Shown here one piece after another: positions 39,719-60,903 of a stretch of 64,000 bases of DNA. The notes below the pieces were generated by a model. The model was not told where the DNA came from, searched no databases, and was given only the letters and a program-made list of their open reading frames with translations. Source of the stretch: a bacterium A37T11 (GTDB lineage: Bacteria; Bacteroidota; Bacteroidia; Sphingobacteriales; Sphingobacteriaceae); NCBI GenBank assembly GCA_900109895.1, contig FOBR01000028.1:1-64000 (forward strand). Reading direction: 5' to 3'. The translations under genes and the position numbers were made by a program. How positions within the stretch are numbered: the first letter of the stretch is position 1; each line of letters begins with the position of its first letter.

Positions 39719-40060
39719 ATGGATGTGGTAGAACAAACCGCCTTTTCATCGGTTGGGCAGGCCAAGCAATTCTATAACCTTAAACATACTTCCGAACGCG
39801 CCTCAAAAATACGCGTATTATGTTCCTTTCTGGACCTAATCTTATTTCATCGGCAAATCCCTGTTTTTGGGAAAATGAATTTAAATAGTTGTTTTTCTGT
39901 TTTTTATTATTTCCCTGTCCGGCTTCCTGTCATCATCAGCTATGAAGGCATCCACCAGGTAGAAACCTATGAATACCCGAAGGAAGCAGTCCGTGAAGCT
40001 TTGCTAAATGCCCTGGCCCATAAAATGTACGAGGGGTACGGCATATCCATCTGTTTGCAG
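39719..40060 (+). pseudogene. Fragment of an AlbA_2-type ATP-binding protein
   Basis: An open stretch whose second half reads IISYEGIHQVETYEYP followed by KEAVREALLNALAHK, the conserved core of the AlbA_2/RecG-like (divergent AAA-4) ATP-binding family. It lacks the N-terminal domain, and its 3' end is cut by the IS66 remnant at about 40040-40060. The first half (from 39719) is of unknown origin. It is a relic rather than a gene. Confidence 0.5.
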
Positions 40061-40816: not shown

Positions 40817-41010
40817 TACGGTTACAGAACGGTGCAACAGCAATTGCCTTATGTGTTCACAACCACCACGAGACCGGGAAGATGTCTATTACCTCCATGC
40901 GGGGAGCCCACCTTAATGGGCAACTTGATTTTTGAGCTATTGGAACAGCTCAAAAGGGAACTACCCGACACAGACCTGCATTGTTTAACCAACGGACGGG
41001 CATTACGCAG
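40817..41010 (+). pseudogene. Relic of a second hxsC (His-Xaa-Ser system radical SAM protein)
   Basis: The plus strand reads TERCNSNCLMCSQPPRDRED, identical in sense to residues 104-122 of the intact HxsC at 56.1 kb, then loses about 72 bp and shifts frame, and continues GEPTLMGNLIFELLEQL and DLHCLTNGRA before the homology ends at about 41010. The DNA match to the intact gene is high but not identical. It is dead. Confidence 0.8.
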
Positions 41011-52428: not shown

Positions 52429-53085
52429 CTATGGGCCAGCAATGAACCCTTGGTGAATGAGCAGCGCGTTCATACTTTCCATGTTGGATAAGACCACCAA
52501 TTGCTCAATGGTTGCATAGTCCCTGACATTACCCGTCTTGTCAGGATACTTGTCCCGCCATTGCTTGGCCGTCTTTCCAAATAGCGCCATATTTAATACA
52601 TCGGCCTCATTTGCATAAACCAAAGAAACCTGTGTTTTAGTCAAGGTAGCCGGGATCAAGTTGTCCTTGATGGCATCCGTATGGATGTGATAGTTAACCT
52701 TTGTAAGTGTGCGTTGGAAGTTTCATTCTAATTTAAACCGATTGCTTTCAATTTCTTTTAACCGCTGAAATTCTTTGATTAAGTAAAATTTAAATTCAGC
52801 GCTTATCCAGGTAGCGAACTCAAACGCGATATCTTTATGGGCAAAGGTTCCTCCATAGCGACCAGTTTTTGAAACTATACCAACGGCATTGGTCGTTTCA
52901 ATCCAGCGTTTAGGTGTTAACGAAAAACTGTTTGACCCAGCCTTATTTTTAATTCCATCGAATTCGATGGAATTAAAATCGGGATTATTAAACAATTCCC
53001 ACAGCCCTATAAACTCTATGGTACTTCTATTTCGCATCCAGTTTTGCAAAATATAATCTCTTCGCTCGCTGTCCCGGTGCAGAGC
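52429..53085 (-). pseudogene. KilA-N domain protein, split by a frameshift
   Basis: The N-terminal part (53085 to about 52725: DYILQNWMRNRSTIEFIGLW, then FSLTPKRWIETTNAVGIVSK and GGTFAHKDIAFEFATWIS) and the C-terminal part (52720-52429: VNYHIHTDAIKDNLIPATLT, then FGKTAKQWRDKYPDKTGNVR and DYATIEQLVVLSNMESMNAL) are in different frames, split near 52723. The first 20-40 residues are lost. KilA-N proteins are phage- and island-associated DNA-binding proteins. This one is inactive. Confidence 0.75.
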
Positions 53086-53320
53086 TGCTTGAAAACAACT
53101 ACCTAAAACGGGCCGCCTTGCTGTTGTTCCACCCCCGGCCGGAAAAATTTGTGACCGGCGCATACATCAATATCGGTTATTTTGAATCCGATGCCGACCT
53201 GATCTTTCAGGATGAGGTGCATGGCAACCTGTTTGAGCAGATTGAAAAAGCCATGGACCTGCTGTTTACCAAATACATCAAAGCCATCATCAGTTATGAA
53301 GGCATCCACCGGGTAATCAC
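53079..53320 (+). pseudogene. Fragment of an AlbA_2-type ATP-binding protein
   Basis: Reads NYLKRAALLLFHPRPEKFVT, then GAYINIGYFESDADLIFQDE, then NLFEQIEKAMDLLFTKYIKA and ISYEGIHRV, the region between the AlbA_2 and ATPase parts of this family. It stops being homologous at about 53313, exactly where the 39.9-kb fragment continues (ETYEYP). The end at 53079 abuts the KilA-N relic. Dead. Confidence 0.6.
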
Positions 53321-53525: not shown

Positions 53526-54248
53526 ATGGCTAAAAAACTACTAAGTAAAGGCTTTCAGCGCCTATCTCGGAAAACGATGGCGGTCATCGCAGCTTCCATG
53601 GCCGCGCTTGTCCCTGCAAAAGCAAAAGCAATTCATTCTGAAACACCAGAAAATTCACCCAATGGTGTAGACCATTCGCGGTCCGTATTCAAATTACAAC
53701 CAAAATTGGTACTCAAGCTCAACATAAGCGATCCGGACAGGAGCCTTTTGGCTATGCATCGCTCACACAGTTCCCATAGCTCGCACAGTTCTCACAGTTC
53801 CCATAGCTCGCATTATTCATCCTCCGTGGGGAGTACACGCAGCACGACGCCCACTTATACTCCCACTCCAAGACCTTCGACGAATTCCGGGCAAAGCAGT
53901 TCCGGGAGCTCGGAGGGCAATGGTTCATCAAGCACAGCCAGCAGAGGCTACAAACCCAGCGGTTTCTCCTCCCAGGGCAAAACCCTTCCTGCATCGTCTG
54001 CCAATCCTATTGTTTGGGGCAGTCATTGGTTCCATCGCACCTTGTATAAAGGTTTAGAGGGGCAGGATGTCGAAGAATTACAGAAGCTATTGCTCCAGCT
54101 AAAACTGAGTACACCTACCACCGGCTATTTTGGGGAACAGACCGAAAAGGCCGTACTTAAGTTCCAACGTGAAAATGAATTGAAGCCTGACGGTAAAGTT
54201 GGCGAGAAAACATATCAATATATAATTAAGAAGGCCAATGGAAATTAA
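53526..54248 (+). CDS. hxsA: His-Xaa-Ser repeat protein HxsA
   Basis: A 240-residue precursor of the His-Xaa-Ser system. An N-terminal leader or signal (to about residue 35, AASMAALVPAKAKA) precedes a linker, seven consecutive HxS tripeptides (residues 78-98, HRS, five HSS, HYS), a Ser/Thr/Pro/Gly-rich segment (100-165) and a peptidoglycan-binding-like domain (about 173-236: GLEGQDVEELQKLLLQLKL, GYFGEQTEKAVLKFQREN). The repeats are the presumed target of the two radical SAM proteins; the mature form would be exported and possibly attach to the cell wall, which is inference. First gene of the operon. Confidence 0.9.
   Translation: MAKKLLSKGFQRLSRKTMAVIAASMAALVPAKAKAIHSETPENSPNGVDHSRSVFKLQPKLVLKLNISDPDRSLLAMHRSHSSHSSHSSHSSHSSHYSSSVGSTRSTTPTYTPTPRPSTNSGQSSSGSSEGNGSSSTASRGYKPSGFSSQGKTLPASSANPIVWGSHWFHRTLYKGLEGQDVEELQKLLLQLKLSTPTTGYFGEQTEKAVLKFQRENELKPDGKVGEKTYQYIIKKANGN
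53757..53819 (+). repeat. HxS-coding tandem repeat
   Basis: Seven 9-bp units coding for His-x-Ser. Codons vary (tcccat, tcgcac, tctcac), so the repeat is kept at protein level rather than being a recent DNA expansion. Confidence 0.85.
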
Positions 54249-54612
54249 GACATACCCAAACGGCATAGACTTCTATCCGCAAAAATCCCTTTACAGCCAA
54301 GAGGTCATTTTCAAATGTATTTATTGGTATAGCGCGGATTATGAAGTCGATATTATAGATCATGCCGCCACCAGTTATTGTATCCGCTTTCAGAATCTGC
54401 CAAGCAATATTGACTTGCCCATGCTTATCACCAAAGTGAAAAGAGAGTTGCATGACTTTAAGCTCCGGGAGATCGTCCAGCAGGAAACCCGTACCATCCG
54501 CGACCTGTTGGTCGCTAAGGCTTTTGCTTATGAAGATCAAGATGAAATTACCCCGGAGACCGAAATATCAGATCCGGTAGGATTTGACCCTTTATCCGTC
54601 TCCCATGATTAA
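54238..54612 (+). CDS. hxsD: His-Xaa-Ser system protein HxsD
   Basis: A 124-residue small cytosolic protein. It carries LHDFKLRE (residues 71-78), matching the LLNDYxLRE-type motif that defines HxsD, followed by a helix with TRTIRDLLVAKAFAY. Its start overlaps hxsA by 11 bp. It is likely a partner or scaffold, perhaps peptide-recognising, for the radical SAM enzymes; its function is not established. Confidence 0.88.
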   Translation: MEIKTYPNGIDFYPQKSLYSQEVIFKCIYWYSADYEVDIIDHAATSYCIRFQNLPSNIDLPMLITKVKRELHDFKLREIVQQETRTIRDLLVAKAFAYEDQDEITPETEISDPVGFDPLSVSHD

Positions 54613-56101
54613 AACGGCAGAAACCCCCATCAAAAGGAGCCGCAAATTTTTAGGCCCTGAATATTTCCGGAAAGAAGATCAGGCTTACCATTTATTGCCT
54701 TTTCGGTTCATGCGGCTCAACGAAGAAAAGGAAATCCTGGTCAACGATCTCGGTGAATACCTAATCAGCCCCAATGGAACTGCCGCACAGGTCATCCGGA
54801 AAGAGGTTGACCCGATAAGCCAGGAAACGCTTTATGCAGATCTGCTCAGCGGCTTCTTCATTAGCGAAACCCCCATTCCTCCATTGTTGGAGGTCATGGC
54901 CACCCGTTACCGCACCAAAAAATCATTTCTTGACCGCTTCACGTCCTTACACATCTTTGTCATTACCCTGCGTTGCGAGCATACTTGCCATTACTGCCAG
55001 GTCTCGCGGGTCAGTGAAGATAAAAATGCGTTTGACATGAGCCGCCAACACATCGACAAGGGCATCGCCCTCATGATGCAGTCACCGAATCCGCACCTCA
55101 CGATGGAATTCCAGGGAGGCGAGGCACTCCTGGCGTTTGACAACATTGTCTACGCAGTAGAGCAGACCAAGCAACAGGCACTCCTCCACGAAAAGAAAAT
55201 AACTTACGTCATTTGTACGAACCTTGCACCCATAACAGAAACGATGCTGGCTTACTGCAAGGACAACGACATCCTGATCTCCACTTCGCTTGACGGGCCG
55301 GAATACGTCCATAACCCCAACCGGCATAAAAAAGGAAAAGACAGCTATCAGCTAGCACTGAAGGGCATTCAACAATGCCGGGAAACATTAGGCAATGACC
55401 AAGTGTCTGCCTTGCTCACCACCTCCACCTTGTCGCTGGATTATCCGCTTGAAATCGTGGACGAATACCACCATCAGGGCTTTAACAGCATTTTTCTGCG
55501 CTCCATCAGCCCCTTCGGCTTTGCCGTGCGGAACGAAAAGAAAAACAAATACGATACCGGGCGTTTTCTGGAGTTTTATAAAACGGCATTGGACCGTATC
55601 ATCCACTATAACCTGGATGGTCATTTCTATCGGGAGGACTATGCCACCATTATCCTCAAGAAAATACTTACCCCGTTCCCGGTCGGTTATGTTGACCTGC
55701 AATCACCGGCCGGCATCATCAATAACGTCATCGTGTTTAACTACGATGGAAAAGTATATGCCTCCGATGAAGCGCGCATGTTGGCAGAAATGAAAGATGA
55801 GACCTTTTTACTCGGGCACTTAGATGAACACCGTTACGACGAGATCTTCTATGGCGAAAAAGCCCTTGCATTTACAGCCGCAAGTATCAATGAATCCCTG
55901 CCCGGCTGTTCAGAATGTGCTTTCCAGCCCTACTGCGGTGCCGATCCGGTTTTTAATCATGCCACACAGGGCGACATTTACGGTTACCGCCCTACCAGTG
56001 CATTCTGCCAAAAAAACATGGAGATCATCCGGCACCTGTTCTTACTGATGGACAGCGATAAGCGCATAGAGAAAATATTTCACTCTTGGGTCAATAGCTA
56101 A
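54605..56101 (+). CDS. hxsB: His-Xaa-Ser system radical SAM maturase HxsB
   Basis: A 498-residue radical SAM/SPASM-type enzyme. The ATG at 54605 is chosen because it overlaps hxsD by 8 bp. The [4Fe-4S] cluster ligands are in TLRCEHTCHYCQ (Cys124, Cys128, Cys131). A C-terminal Cys-rich SPASM-like region reads GCSECAFQPYCGADPVFN ... FCQKNMEI, for auxiliary clusters. By analogy to peptide-modifying radical SAM proteins it probably acts on the HxS repeats of HxsA; the chemistry is not shown by the sequence. Confidence 0.92.
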   Translation: MIKTAETPIKRSRKFLGPEYFRKEDQAYHLLPFRFMRLNEEKEILVNDLGEYLISPNGTAAQVIRKEVDPISQETLYADLLSGFFISETPIPPLLEVMATRYRTKKSFLDRFTSLHIFVITLRCEHTCHYCQVSRVSEDKNAFDMSRQHIDKGIALMMQSPNPHLTMEFQGGEALLAFDNIVYAVEQTKQQALLHEKKITYVICTNLAPITETMLAYCKDNDILISTSLDGPEYVHNPNRHKKGKDSYQLALKGIQQCRETLGNDQVSALLTTSTLSLDYPLEIVDEYHHQGFNSIFLRSISPFGFAVRNEKKNKYDTGRFLEFYKTALDRIIHYNLDGHFYREDYATIILKKILTPFPVGYVDLQSPAGIINNVIVFNYDGKVYASDEARMLAEMKDETFLLGHLDEHRYDEIFYGEKALAFTAASINESLPGCSECAFQPYCGADPVFNHATQGDIYGYRPTSAFCQKNMEIIRHLFLLMDSDKRIEKIFHSWVNS

Positions 56102-57231
56102 TGGAACTGAAAACAAAGGGAAAGGCAGCAAGTGTAACTGAGCCCATGGTGGTTCGCGTTACCAGGAATCCTGAAAAGATCGATAGCCATACCGCTTTAT
56201 TGGCGGACGATTATCTTCCAGGCAATCTTGAAAATTTCAGGGCCGTGCTCAGCTCGCTTGATCTAACCGGGTTCCCCATCAGCCAGCCGCATGTACACGG
56301 TATCAAGTCCACATCTCACCTAGCAGAAGGAGATATTGTCGCCATCAATACCGATGGCGTCATCAATACCTTGTATCGGGTTAACTCCCATCACAATTTT
56401 CTGCTGGCCACAGAGCGTTGCAACAGTAATTGCCTCATGTGTTCACAGCCACCGCGAGACCGGGAAGATGTGTATTACCTCCATATGCTCCATCGACAGC
56501 TTATTCCACTTATCCCCAAAGACTGCAAAGAATTAGGGATAACCGGTGGAGAACCCACCTTGATGGGCAACCTGTTTTTTGAGCTATTGGAGCAACTTAA
56601 AACTGAGCTTCCCGAAACGGACCTGCACTGTTTAACCAATGGGAGGGCATTCGCGTGGAATAATCTGGCAGACAAACTGGGTAAGATGCAATTGGATCGG
56701 CTCATGCTGGGTATCCCACTCTATTCAGACTACTATAGGGAACACGATTACATCGTCCAGGCCAAGGATGCTTTTCATCAAACTATTCAGGGGCTGTATC
56801 ATTTGGCCGCCAATAAGCAGCGGATCGAAATCCGTATTATTTTGCAAAAACAGTCCATTCCGCGCCTGGTAAAGTTGGCCAAATTCATCTATAAAAATTT
56901 GCCCTTTGTAGAACACGTGGCCTTTATGGGCCTCGAACACCAAGGTTATACACCCCGTAATATGGATCAGCTCTGGATTGACCCGGTGTATTACATGGAA
57001 GAACTGGGAGAGGCCGTGGAGTTCCTATCCCATAAACAACTGAACGTATCCATCTACAACAGTCAGCTTTGCCTGCTGCCCAGGGAACTCTGGCCCTATA
57101 GCCGCAAGTCTATTTCAGATTGGAAGAATATATACGTGGATGAATGTAAAAGCTGTTCTGTGTTTGATCAGTGTGGTGGATTGTTTGTTTCAGGGGAGAA
57201 GGTGCATAGTGAATTTCTAAAGGCAATTTAA
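56101..57231 (+). CDS. hxsC: His-Xaa-Ser system radical SAM maturase HxsC
   Basis: A 376-residue radical SAM protein. Cluster motif TERCNSNCLMCSQPP (Cys107, Cys111, Cys114); GITGGEPTLMGN follows with the SAM-binding GGEP. The C-terminus has Cys pairs (DECKSCSVFDQCGG) for another cluster. Its ATG shares one base with the hxsB stop (TAATG). It pairs with HxsB in all known His-Xaa-Ser loci. A decayed duplicate of its middle lies at 40.8 kb. Confidence 0.92.
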   Translation: MELKTKGKAASVTEPMVVRVTRNPEKIDSHTALLADDYLPGNLENFRAVLSSLDLTGFPISQPHVHGIKSTSHLAEGDIVAINTDGVINTLYRVNSHHNFLLATERCNSNCLMCSQPPRDREDVYYLHMLHRQLIPLIPKDCKELGITGGEPTLMGNLFFELLEQLKTELPETDLHCLTNGRAFAWNNLADKLGKMQLDRLMLGIPLYSDYYREHDYIVQAKDAFHQTIQGLYHLAANKQRIEIRIILQKQSIPRLVKLAKFIYKNLPFVEHVAFMGLEHQGYTPRNMDQLWIDPVYYMEELGEAVEFLSHKQLNVSIYNSQLCLLPRELWPYSRKSISDWKNIYVDECKSCSVFDQCGGLFVSGEKVHSEFLKAI

Positions 57232-57324: not shown

Positions 57325-58740
57325 TTAATACTCAACTAACCCCAATTCTTCCAGCCGTATGGCCATTGCTTCTACTGAAACGTTAAACACATCCGCAAGA
57401 GATTTAAATGTAATGCCGGCAAAATACTCTGCCTTTGCTAGTTTTCGGGACAAACCTCGCAGACTCCTGCATTCGGCTTTCAGTTGACTGGGACTGCCTT
57501 GAATTAAATTGAAAGCATTGCTTTCATCGATAACAAACTTGTCCGTTAAAAAGAACGTTTGAAAAATCTCATTTATTTGTTTTCTAGGCATTAAAAAGTA
57601 CGACGCAAATTTATCCGCCTGGAGTTCCTGTGGATTTCTCCGCCCCTTTGATTCTCCGCCATCTACGGGAATATCGCGGTGCAATACTGATTGGTTATGT
57701 AGTATTGCATGTCCTAGTTCGTGAGCGGCGGTAAATGCCATTACTTGCGGAGAAAAATCATTTGAAATTAGGACCAATTTCTTTTGTTGGTCTATTATTC
57801 CCGCTACTTCAGACATTTCTGTTTGATTACCATTTAGGCCTAGTTCATTTGAATATAAATAGTCATATCCCAAAACTTTTTTAAACAAGACGTCTGGGAT
57901 TAATATCTGTAAGGGATTGGTGGGGGCATTTTTTGACCAAATTTTGTCGCGGTGCTTCCAAACTAACCGCTGTAGCTGGGTTGCATAATTTTCAACATCT
58001 GCATTCGACATTTTTTTGTTTGATTTTGATTGCTTAAGAAGCATGTTCACATCTTTGTAGAGATGCGCTTTTTTATCAACCTCCGATTCTAAAGCCTCAA
58101 TTTTGGAGGCGGCTATCAAACTTAACTCCCCGAAATGGCTCTTTAATTGACTCGACTGTGATCTTGCGTTTTCGATCCAATCATATTCATCACTTCCAAA
58201 TGATAACAGATTTAATTGTACGATTGATAGACAGCCGCCGAGAGCCGCAACGGCTCCGCTTAGGGCAACCTGAGAGTCCCCCCTTGCGGTTTTAAAAGCG
58301 TTGTCAAAAACAAATCCTGCGATTTGGGCTAGCTCAACGCTCAGGCTTGCAATGCTAAGAGGTATCTCAACAGCAATTTTGAGATCGCCTAACGCTTGGC
58401 GTGCCAGTCTAGCCTTTTTTACCGGGTTTTTCTCAAGATCCCGCGCCTGCCGCGACTTTATTGTTTTATCGAATTGCACAGCGTCTTCACAGAAGAGCTT
58501 TGTCAGTTCGGGAAAAATACGATCTTCTATAGCGGCATTCATATCTAAGAGTTTTGGTAAACACCCAGCATAATTTGGTCGCCTTTTTTCTTCATTAGTC
58601 AAACTAATAACCGTTACCAGCAGCTTTGCTGATATCATGCCTTGAAAAGCAGCAGCGCTTCCAGAACCAGGTTTGTGGTTTCCAGCCCCAAATTTCCTCA
58701 GAAGTTCCTCAGTAGAGATGTCAAGTAATTTAGTATCCAT
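57325..58740 (-). CDS. FTCD_C-like cyclodeaminase/cyclohydrolase - ImmA/IrrE metallopeptidase fusion
   Basis: A 471-residue two-domain protein. Residues about 5-205 resemble the formiminotransferase cyclodeaminase C-terminal (FTCD_C/FchA) fold: GAGNHKPGSGSAAAFQGMIS and ARGDSQVALSGAVAALGG. A linker follows, then an ImmA/IrrE zinc peptidase (about 260-471) with AAHELGHAILH (HELGH residues 340-344) and QELQADKFASYFLMP, the third ligand region, and a C-terminal helix-turn-helix-like VFNVSVEAMAIRLEELGL. I prefer ATG 58740 over the TTG 12 bp upstream. ImmA/IrrE peptidases usually cleave repressors; a fusion to an FTCD_C fold is unusual. Confidence 0.85.
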   Translation of the reverse strand: MDTKLLDISTEELLRKFGAGNHKPGSGSAAAFQGMISAKLLVTVISLTNEEKRRPNYAGCLPKLLDMNAAIEDRIFPELTKLFCEDAVQFDKTIKSRQARDLEKNPVKKARLARQALGDLKIAVEIPLSIASLSVELAQIAGFVFDNAFKTARGDSQVALSGAVAALGGCLSIVQLNLLSFGSDEYDWIENARSQSSQLKSHFGELSLIAASKIEALESEVDKKAHLYKDVNMLLKQSKSNKKMSNADVENYATQLQRLVWKHRDKIWSKNAPTNPLQILIPDVLFKKVLGYDYLYSNELGLNGNQTEMSEVAGIIDQQKKLVLISNDFSPQVMAFTAAHELGHAILHNQSVLHRDIPVDGGESKGRRNPQELQADKFASYFLMPRKQINEIFQTFFLTDKFVIDESNAFNLIQGSPSQLKAECRSLRGLSRKLAKAEYFAGITFKSLADVFNVSVEAMAIRLEELGLVEY

Positions 58741-58766
58741 GCTTGTAAACAATTCAAATGCAATAT

Positions 58767-59533: not shown

Positions 59534-59890
59534 GTGGCAACGAAAGATGACGTTTCCCATTTCCTTCGGGATTTTTTTGCCAAACAGTTGGTGTTTGGCA
59601 TTGTTTTCAGGGACAGGCCCAAGAACGTACAGACGCTCTTAGATTTGGAAATTACCCCGGCACAGCGGACAAAAATCGTGGAGTCGATTACGCTCACAGA
59701 TTACAGCGAAGGCCCACTGGATGACCAGCTCCACGGAATAGCAGGCATGTGGGTATTTGGCAAAAGACATAAAAACAACGAACTATATATAAAAATATCT
59801 ATGGGGGTATCAAGCAATCCGGTTATCTGCATATCGTTCCATGCAGCCGAGCACCCCATCCATTATCCTTTTAAAAAGGAAAATATATGA
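59534..59890 (+). CDS. MqsR-like type II toxin
   Basis: A 118-residue protein starting at GTG; an in-frame stop lies upstream, so no longer form is possible. The blocks TLTDYSEGPLDDQ, MWVFGKRHK, ELYIKISMG and SFHAAEHPIHYPF match a toxin family annotated as MqsR-like (BECR-type RNase fold). It would cleave mRNA when free; the partner is encoded next, overlapping by ATGA. The family name is from memory, and DUF4258-like is an alternative. Confidence 0.7.
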   Translation: MATKDDVSHFLRDFFAKQLVFGIVFRDRPKNVQTLLDLEITPAQRTKIVESITLTDYSEGPLDDQLHGIAGMWVFGKRHKNNELYIKISMGVSSNPVICISFHAAEHPIHYPFKKENI

Positions 59891-60903
59891 ACAGTCCAAT
59901 CACAGGAAAAAAAATGAAGATCGTCCGCGAGGCGGACACGTTAACATTTCGCAAGGAAACGTTCCCTGTCGTATACCATTATTACCTATGCGAAGACAGC
60001 GGAGAGCGGTTTACCGACGAACAGTTGGATACGGTTAATATGGTACAGGTCACCAACCAATACCGCGAGAAGTATGGAATCCCATTCCCGGAGGAGATGC
60101 GGCAGATCCGTCAGCAGTATGGCATATCGGCCAGCAAAATGTCAGAAATACTGGGGCTTGGGGCCAATACCTACCGCTTGTATGAAAGCGGTGAAATGCC
60201 CACCGTTGCCAATGGGCGGCTTATCCTATCCGTACGCGACCCGGAGGAGTTCATCAAGCAGGTAACTGCCAGCAGCCATTTCCTGGGAGAGCGGGAGGTA
60301 AACAAGCTTATCGCTAAGGCAAAGACGTTGCTGGATGAGCGGAATATTGTGGCGCGTGACGAGCATCCAAAACAGATTGAGCTGCGGAATGACCCTCCTG
60401 GTTCATTTAATGGCTACCGCAGGCTCAGCCTTACCCGGATATCAAATGCCATTGCCTACTTTGACGAGCATATTGGGGACCTGTATAAAACCAAGCTAAA
60501 CAAACTGCTGTTCTACATGGATTTTTTGGCCTACCAGAAACACGGGCGCTCCATTAGCGGATTACCCTACCGTGCCATCCCTTTTGGCCCTGTGCCGGCA
60601 GAATATGGGCGGCTGTACGTGCGGCTTCAGGATGACGGGAAAATATCCGTGGAAGAAAAATATCGTAAGGACGATTCGTGTTCAGAAATTTACCATGCTG
60701 ATGTGCCTTTCGACGGCGATGAGTTCTCGGAAGGTGAGTTACAGGTCCTGCAATCCGTGGCCAAGCTCTTTAATGGCAAGAGCACAGGAGAAGTTAAAGA
60801 CCTCAGCCATGAAGAGCCTGCCTGGAAGGAAAACAAAGATGAGCGACAGCTGATCAGTTACCAGCAATATGCGTTTTGGGTTGGTGCGGGTTTGATTGAT
60901 TAA
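59887..60903 (+). CDS. MqsA-like antitoxin with HTH and Panacea domain
   Basis: A 338-residue protein. An N-terminal beta-strand region without the usual zinc cysteines of MqsA (only one Cys, in YYLCEDSGERF) is followed by a helix-turn-helix (IRQQYGISASKMSEILGLGA, about 74-95) and, in the C-terminal half, a Panacea/SocA-type (DUF4065-like) domain: KLNKLLFYMDFLAYQKHG, GLPYRAIPFGPVPAEYGRLY. Panacea domains are antitoxin modules in many toxin-antitoxin systems. It is the second gene of the pair. Confidence 0.82.
   Translation: MNSPITGKKMKIVREADTLTFRKETFPVVYHYYLCEDSGERFTDEQLDTVNMVQVTNQYREKYGIPFPEEMRQIRQQYGISASKMSEILGLGANTYRLYESGEMPTVANGRLILSVRDPEEFIKQVTASSHFLGEREVNKLIAKAKTLLDERNIVARDEHPKQIELRNDPPGSFNGYRRLSLTRISNAIAYFDEHIGDLYKTKLNKLLFYMDFLAYQKHGRSISGLPYRAIPFGPVPAEYGRLYVRLQDDGKISVEEKYRKDDSCSEIYHADVPFDGDEFSEGELQVLQSVAKLFNGKSTGEVKDLSHEEPAWKENKDERQLISYQQYAFWVGAGLID

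Follow-up and report, generated by a model that had tools for sequence, protein, structure and literature searches.

An intact hxsA-hxsD-hxsB-hxsC operon in the Sphingobacteriaceae bacterium A37T11 encodes an HxsA-type precursor with a predicted peptidoglycan-binding tail

The Hxs (His-Xaa-Ser) system was reportedly described in silico by Haft and Basu in 2011. Here we analysed one such locus in bacterium A37T11 (Bacteroidota; Sphingobacteriaceae), which lies in a stretch of 64,000 nucleotides, hereafter the window (assembly GCA_900109895.1, contig FOBR01000028.1, positions 1 to 64,000 of the forward strand). A first-pass annotation made from the DNA letters had read positions 53526-57231 as a complete Hxs operon, and this reading held: the locus is a real, intact four-gene hxsA-hxsD-hxsB-hxsC operon, in which HxsD, HxsB and HxsC are encoded side by side and each exceed a curated NCBIfam cut-off. 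Its features are as follows.

53526-54248, + strand: hxsA, ATG start, 240 amino acids, taken from the open reading frame (ORF) list and the DNA
53709..53723, + strand: VLKLN motif, HxsA residues 62-66, 11 residues ahead of the first HxS unit
53757..53819, + strand: HxS array of seven tandem units, HxsA residues 78-98
54060..54218, + strand: PG_binding_1 domain (PF01471, E 8.6e-16), HxsA residues 179-231
54238-54612, + strand: hxsD, 124 amino acids, TIGR03976 over cut-off
54605-56101, + strand: hxsB, ATG at 54605, 498 amino acids, TIGR03978
56101-57231, + strand: hxsC, 376 amino acids, TIGR03977

The annotated overlaps of 11 bp (hxsA/hxsD), 8 bp (hxsD/hxsB) and 1 bp (hxsB/hxsC) were all recovered from the ORFs and the DNA of 53526-57231, with the ATG at 54605 taken as the hxsB start instead of the upstream TTG (54584) of the ORF list. 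The NCBIfam scores were 66.1 bits for HxsD (cut-off 50), 587.7 for HxsB (370) and 374.3 for HxsC (267.9). HxsA matched TIGR03979 at 45.8 bits (E 6.7e-12), short of the cut-off of 121.65 bits, and is therefore called here an HxsA-type precursor, not a TIGR03979 equivalog. Its parts are, in order, a signal-peptide-like N-terminus, the motif, the array, a Ser/Thr/Pro-rich linker and the PG_binding_1 tail, and it contains no Cys. The seven HxS units that had been reported are present as HRS, five HSS and HYS; they use six serine codons (TCA, AGT, TCC, AGC, TCG and TCT), and an 18-bp stretch occurs twice. The C-terminal domain does match the peptidoglycan-binding profile, at 58.3 bits against a gathering cut-off of 23, and its relatives among solved structures (E 2e-4 to 6e-4) are chains of a spore cortex-lytic enzyme, of endolysin gp144 and of a lytic transglycosylase entry with a similar sequence.

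To place these features, 38 loci were compared (the window, L003 and L005-L040; L004 was excluded). HxsA was found in 33 of them and analysed in 31, without L022 (cut by a contig end) and the divergent L037; the other sets comprised 36 HxsB (partial L024 and L027 excluded), 35 HxsC (excluding the broken L003, the cut L010 and the weak L040) and 33 aligned HxsD out of 34 found (partial L022 excluded). The wall-binding tail pointed out in the annotation is not new, as the existing HxsA model already includes it: HxsA residues 55-228, spanning array and tail, align to positions 41-181 of the 190 in TIGR03979, all 31 HxsA match this model at E<=0.01, and 15 of them carry PF01471. Presumably these 15 comprise the proteins of Aeromonas L035 and Klebsiella L036 and the 13 tailed ones from the Bacteroidota branch; when the 13 tails were made into a profile, it detected L035 (E 2.7e-6) and missed L036. 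Seven HxS units, as in the window, are found in 15 proteins and eight units in 8. The A-D-B-C order with a tailed HxsA recurs in 12 further Bacteroidota loci (in L010 hxsC is truncated by the contig end), so the arrangement is not due to chance. On the tree of 36 HxsB, all 13 rows with a tailed HxsA group in a single clade (96/93) next to Bacteroidota relatives that lack the tail, and the window HxsB nests among Bacteroidota HxsB; the tail changed at least twice on this tree, in which long non-Bacteroidota branches leave the deep order unsure. Calothrix HxsA bears a different tail, for which no solved relative was found at E<=1. Two annotated plasmids from Bacteroidota name the gene in the hxsA position just 'peptidoglycan-binding domain-containing protein', which indicates that the tailed branch can escape the HxsA name.

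Compared with the Hxs system as modelled (TIGR03976-TIGR03979), the window shares HxsB, HxsC and HxsD over cut-off, the HxS array and a tail of the kind also seen in proteobacterial HxsA, for example that of Aeromonas L035. It differs in that hxsA comes first, whereas it comes last in Aeromonas L035 and Klebsiella L036, and in that its HxsA stays under the TIGR03979 cut-off and has the VLKLN motif and a long Ser/Thr/Pro linker. The tailless HxsA2 (NF038296) is alignable to the window HxsA over the N-terminus and the HxS array, and tailless Bacteroidota loci also show the A-D-B-C order; however, HxsA2 stops just past the array, without linker or wall-binding tail, and its model gives the window HxsA 18.3 bits where 48 are required. 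The window HxsA is thus a tailed precursor under-scored by current models and an ordinary member of the uncharacterised Hxs type; the operon type is already known from sequence, and the locus is an extra example of it, not a new system. Layout varies elsewhere in the set. Three loci with tailless HxsA (L012, L016 and L023) have a gap of about 540-600 bp between hxsD and hxsB, where the window has an overlap. L037 (MT837156.1, a human gut contig labelled phage) holds a divergent Hxs cluster in the order D-C-B, followed by a gene with MORN-like repeats (by eye) and by one for a long HxS protein, in which 40 residues hold up to 11 units when overlapping ones are counted, and which by eye has no peptidoglycan-binding-like tail.

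The pattern [VI]L[KR][LIV]N occurs in 22 of the 31 HxsA, that is, in the window protein and all 21 aligned Bacteroidota proteins (13 tailed and 9 tailless together), always 11 or 12 residues from the array, while its rate in shuffled versions was 0.2%. Because this spacing is constant across two tail types, it suggests a binding site, and the motif is probably a recognition site for a maturase or partner; shared descent accounts for part of its conservation. Ahead of the motif, the window HxsA has a hydrophobic 12-mer at residues 18-29 and, by eye, AKA at 33-35. All 31 HxsA have such a 12-mer ahead of the array, with net positive charge preceding it in 29 and an AxA-like site following it in 27. 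The 12-mer scores of the HxsA were 1.53-2.66, compared with means of 1.14 (HxsD) and 1.20 (HxsC) over the first 70 residues, although the HxsD and HxsC maxima (2.89 and 2.02) overlap the HxsA range. By this scoring, a rough substitute for a signal-peptide predictor, Sec-type export of HxsA is plausible. Twin-arginine (Tat) export was also considered and dropped: RRKFLK is present in Sphingobium L034, KRSFLK in two Legionella proteins and RR in L010 (by eye), and the others lack such a sequence.

The two radical S-adenosylmethionine (SAM) maturases of the annotation were borne out, since Pfam places Radical_SAM (PF04055) in both HxsB and HxsC, which are also over the TIGR03978 and TIGR03977 cut-offs. 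HxsB has CxxxCxxC at residues 124/128/131 and keeps auxiliary cysteines at 435, 438, 444 and 468; HxsC has the motif at 107/111/114 and auxiliary cysteines at 324, 349, 352 and 358. Motif and auxiliary cysteines are invariant in 36/36 HxsB and 35/35 HxsC. Three further HxsB positions (369, 387 and 447), which, mapped by the AnSME pattern, we take to be those of auxiliary cluster I (Aux I) of a SPASM domain, are A, S and D in the window protein. All three Aux I-mapped cysteines are gone in 32 of the 36 HxsB; Aeromonas L035 and Klebsiella L036 have one, and L037 and L040 all three. The window HxsB does not show the combined Aux I and Aux II cysteines of a two-cluster SPASM domain, and its Pfam SPASM score of 15.6 bits is under the cut-off of 21.5. 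Its four auxiliary cysteines could hold one cluster and, with the Aux I cysteines absent, the enzyme probably holds two clusters rather than three. The structures closest to the HxsB model (mean predicted local distance difference test score 71.4) were 5wgg (CteB; Z 32.3), AnSME (32.2), ChlB (30.2) and TigE (25.4), and a sequence search of solved structures again put 5wgg and AnSME on top. Among the best 25 of the 49 NCBIfam families matched, HxsB fell far below the cut-off of every family but its own, including PapB (105.5 of 340 bits), YhhB (65.8 of 445), GrrM (56.2 of 310), XyeB (37 of 450) and FxsB (35.3 of 370). L040 (G208:C8) encodes an HxsB-like enzyme of 361.9 bits, under the cut-off, with the three Aux I cysteines; no HxsA or HxsD was found within that stretch, and it is possibly an ancestor-like relative.

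What is the chemistry of these enzymes? In its accessible text, PMC9062424 states that Hxs systems 'putatively rely on' HxsB and HxsC and cites Haft and Basu, and that of PMC8446631 lists hxs genes along with others, among them genes of integrating conjugative elements in Pseudomonas aeruginosa. No experiment on Hxs was found in the accessible parts of the literature searched, in agreement with the annotation's remark that the modification is poorly described. According to the available portions of PMC11002830, radical SAM enzymes form bonds from residue i to i+2, that of MscB being C4(Phe)-C-beta(Ser) and that of HaaB C2(His)-C-beta(Ala), and the hgh cassette combines two radical SAM enzymes with a protein that is a recognition element (RRE) of ribosomally synthesized and post-translationally modified peptides. 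As H-x-S is itself an i/i+2 motif, our first guess, by analogy, would be that every HxS unit acquires a C2(His)-C-beta(Ser) bond. The maturases of triceptides and three-residue cyclophanes (HaaB, YhhB and FxsB) share with Hxs a radical SAM plus auxiliary-cluster domain and a three-residue motif with an aromatic-type residue first. On the other hand, HxsB lies far below the cut-offs of the NCBIfam-listed families (GrrM, XyeB, FxsB and YhhB), it has lost the Aux I cysteines, and Hxs has a second radical SAM enzyme and a substrate that is protein-sized and probably exported.

A precedent for modifying an exported precursor is found in bufferins. In the accessible text of PMC12452194, their precursors bear a Sec-type signal peptide, not a classical leader, and are modified before export, and the authors suggest that a partner protein masks the signal peptide; HxsD could, speculatively, mask that of HxsA in the same way. 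Bufferins differ from Hxs in using multinuclear non-heme iron-dependent oxidative (MNIO) enzymes on a Cys core, as opposed to radical SAM enzymes and His, and the same text describes no wall-binding tail. The operon also lacks the MNIO maturase with DUF2063 partner that marks bufferins, its maturases being radical SAM enzymes and its HxsD matching TIGR03976.

The best explanation of the whole, which we favour with modest confidence, is that HxsA is modified by radical SAM enzymes, exported by Sec and moored to the peptidoglycan of the periplasm. Starting from what is directly supported (the genes present, the motif and its spacing, the pattern of cysteines, the tail, and the purifying selection described below), we infer what the chemistry is, what HxsD and the motif do, and that HxsA is exported and binds the wall, as follows. 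HxsA would be made with a Sec-type signal peptide and with VLKLN 11 residues ahead of the seven HxS units; HxsD and/or the maturases would bind its N-terminal region and hold it in the cytoplasm, where HxsB and HxsC would oxidatively modify the array via 5'-deoxyadenosyl radicals, with one His(C2)-to-Ser(C-beta) bond per H-x-S, at -2 Da each, as the first guess. The modified HxsA would then be exported, and its PG_binding_1 tail would fix it on the periplasmic peptidoglycan. The earlier proposal that a modified repeat is displayed on or near the cell wall thus stands in part: export is plausible, but if the host is Gram-negative, which its relatives make likely, the wall is periplasmic and 'displayed' should read 'held in the periplasm'.

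Several results weigh against this explanation. No PG_binding_1 match was obtained in 16 of the 31 HxsA, which makes anchoring to the wall dispensable for the system, and the motif is absent from 9 of the 31, those outside Bacteroidota. Since HxsB is far below the cut-offs of the other listed families, their chemistry is not transferable to it. The accessible parts of the literature searched contained no demonstration of modification, export or wall binding of any Hxs protein. The HxsD model, confident for residues 1-90, is a beta-beta-alpha-beta-beta-alpha, ferredoxin/S6-like arrangement with a last helix of 38 residues, for which Foldseek found no fold match at E<=0.001 and the best VIA Z score was 7.7, a level that may reflect merely an arrangement shared by many proteins. 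Neither list of fold matches had a PqqD chain among its 50 listed entries, and hhalign against PqqD (PF05402) gave a probability of 0.7%, close to the controls HxsC-PqqD (0.4%) and HxsB N-terminus-HxsD (0.3%); with this fold and this profile comparison, the reading of HxsD as an RRE was set aside. The HxsB N-terminus, whose residues 33-82 are modelled in the order strand-strand-strand-helix-helix, reached 1.2% in the same comparison, near the control values, hence no claim of an RRE is made for it either.

The His-rich array could instead serve metal buffering, in that the modified or unmodified array would bind periplasmic copper or zinc while the tail holds HxsA on the wall. Sec-type export would suit this role, and there are parallels in the bufferins, which are exported, modified, copper-chelating peptides (accessible text of PMC12452194), and in noursin, which binds copper via a His cross-link (likewise PMC11002830). 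However, the best 25 of the 110 families matched by the 116 flanking ORFs of the compared loci include none for copper resistance or for transport of heavy metals (2 of these ORFs matched the channel family Ion_trans). In addition, the window HxsA is without Cys, and its maturases are unlike the MNIO enzymes of bufferins. We therefore consider this alternative unlikely.

Another line of evidence comes from a second hxs copy in the same genome, L003 (G000:C51, 4874-9386), which has hxsD, hxsB and hxsC, the last with one in-frame TAA, while of hxsA roughly the final 18 codons are left. The ratios of nonsynonymous to synonymous divergence (dN/dS) between the copies were 0.154 for hxsD, 0.065 for hxsB and 0.077 for hxsC (dS 0.53-0.77); these three genes have been under long purifying selection, and the C51 copy appears to have decayed recently. 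No second full hxsA was found in this genome (97.5% complete). The C51 copy lies downstream of an intact ATP-binding-protein gene, with Doc-, RhuM- and NACHT-type ORFs nearby (by eye). Pieces 97-100% identical to C51 are also present in the window, namely part of the ATP-binding-protein gene (39931-40037) and two hxsC pieces with an internal deletion (40820-41004), both within a stretch resembling IS66 debris (by eye), whereas the operon proper is 86.5% identical, which indicates that the pieces have different histories. A further fragment (53081-53315), just upstream of hxsA, is 96% identical to the intact C51 ATP-binding-protein gene. The broken hxsA and hxsC of C51, the hxsC relics and the gene fragment beside the operon would all fit decaying mobile cargo with no present function in the strain; yet the four window genes are all open, and dN/dS between the copies is 0.07-0.15 for hxsD, hxsB and hxsC, and we regard such decay as quite improbable.

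We also examined the distribution of the system. Hxs homologues are rare, patchy and partly plasmid-borne. HxsB over the cut-off was found once among the 395 genomes sampled across the phylum and once among 60 relatives, each time in the own genome, with one more in the phylum sample at E<=1e-80. At E<=1e-60 it occurred on 327 of 72,556 plasmid records, 261 of them predicted conjugative and 303 from Klebsiella (the latter being near-copies), and it was found on 2 of 50,697 phage records; a search for phage carriage in viral contigs gave no match with search patterns that reach close relatives alone. The operon behaves as sporadic, mobile cargo. A conserved fifth gene was not seen, as no Pfam family occurred in more than 2 of the 116 flanking ORFs (1e-5). 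In the flanks of 25 loci, which hold these 116 ORFs, the PADLOC families matched numbered 13 at E<=1e-60 and 126 at 1e-10, as against 1 and 30 in 25 control regions (144 ORFs), which were hand-picked at round coordinates from 13 of the 25 genomes. Single scans of 30 flanking ORFs and the first set member traced matches to L005, L007, L013 and L014 (E<=1e-60) and to L012 (1.6e-44), leaving the Old and PDC-M15B hits without an assigned locus; most other singly scanned flanking ORFs had no match at 1e-10. Defence-gene matches are therefore commoner beside hxs loci than in the control regions, and because the PADLOC models overlap and few loci matched, this enrichment is a lead, not proof.

Such surroundings raise the idea of an envelope conflict module, that is, a modified, wall-moored peptide acting against phage, incoming plasmids or competitors and kept in defence islands and mobile elements. 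The PADLOC matches in the flanks, the carriage on conjugative plasmids and on phage records, and the rarity of HxsB in the phylum sample would all be consistent with it. However, the matched families are not independent and by our own grouping come down to about seven systems versus one; four to six of the 25 loci matched at 1e-60 versus 1 of 25 hand-picked controls, numbers too small to test firmly. In the first two batches of single scans, 14 of 20 proteins had no 1e-10 match or came from loci without a strong one. Moreover, any island cargo would give the same pattern, and class II lanthipeptide clusters likewise lie near defence genes (accessible text of PMC12715929). Overall, a role in conflict seems improbable. 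A more specific version, which we regard as a long shot, is that HxsB without Aux I and HxsC stitch a secreted, wall-moored His/Ser ladder that blocks phage, plasmid entry or rivals, that lineages fixed different tails (PG_binding_1, or another in Calothrix) or none onto one shared core, and that the system spread by defence islands and conjugative plasmids.

Other genes adjoin the operon in the window. On the opposite strand, 57325-58752 encodes FTCD_C (1.3e-19), a formiminotransferase-cyclodeaminase domain, fused to an IrrE-like M78 peptidase domain (7.4e-15). Downstream, 59534-60903 is a possible Panacea-type toxin-antitoxin pair, the second gene of which, the one covered by the Pfam scan, matched SocA_Panacea (2.1e-19) with a helix-turn-helix. 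SusC/SusD-like ORFs were noted by eye near the operon.

Taken together, new here are the motif with its 11-12-residue spacing, the absence of Aux I cysteines in 32 of the 36 HxsB and the copies under purifying selection. The locus offers several handles: a short motif at near-fixed spacing that can be mutated, a seven-target array in which modification should show up as a mass ladder, a tail that allows localisation at the wall, relatives without that tail to serve as natural controls, and an HxsB without Aux I cysteines. If the His-Ser cross-link is true, a modified protein, more than a peptide, would be delivered to the wall, and this locus makes the question of what Hxs makes and does directly testable.

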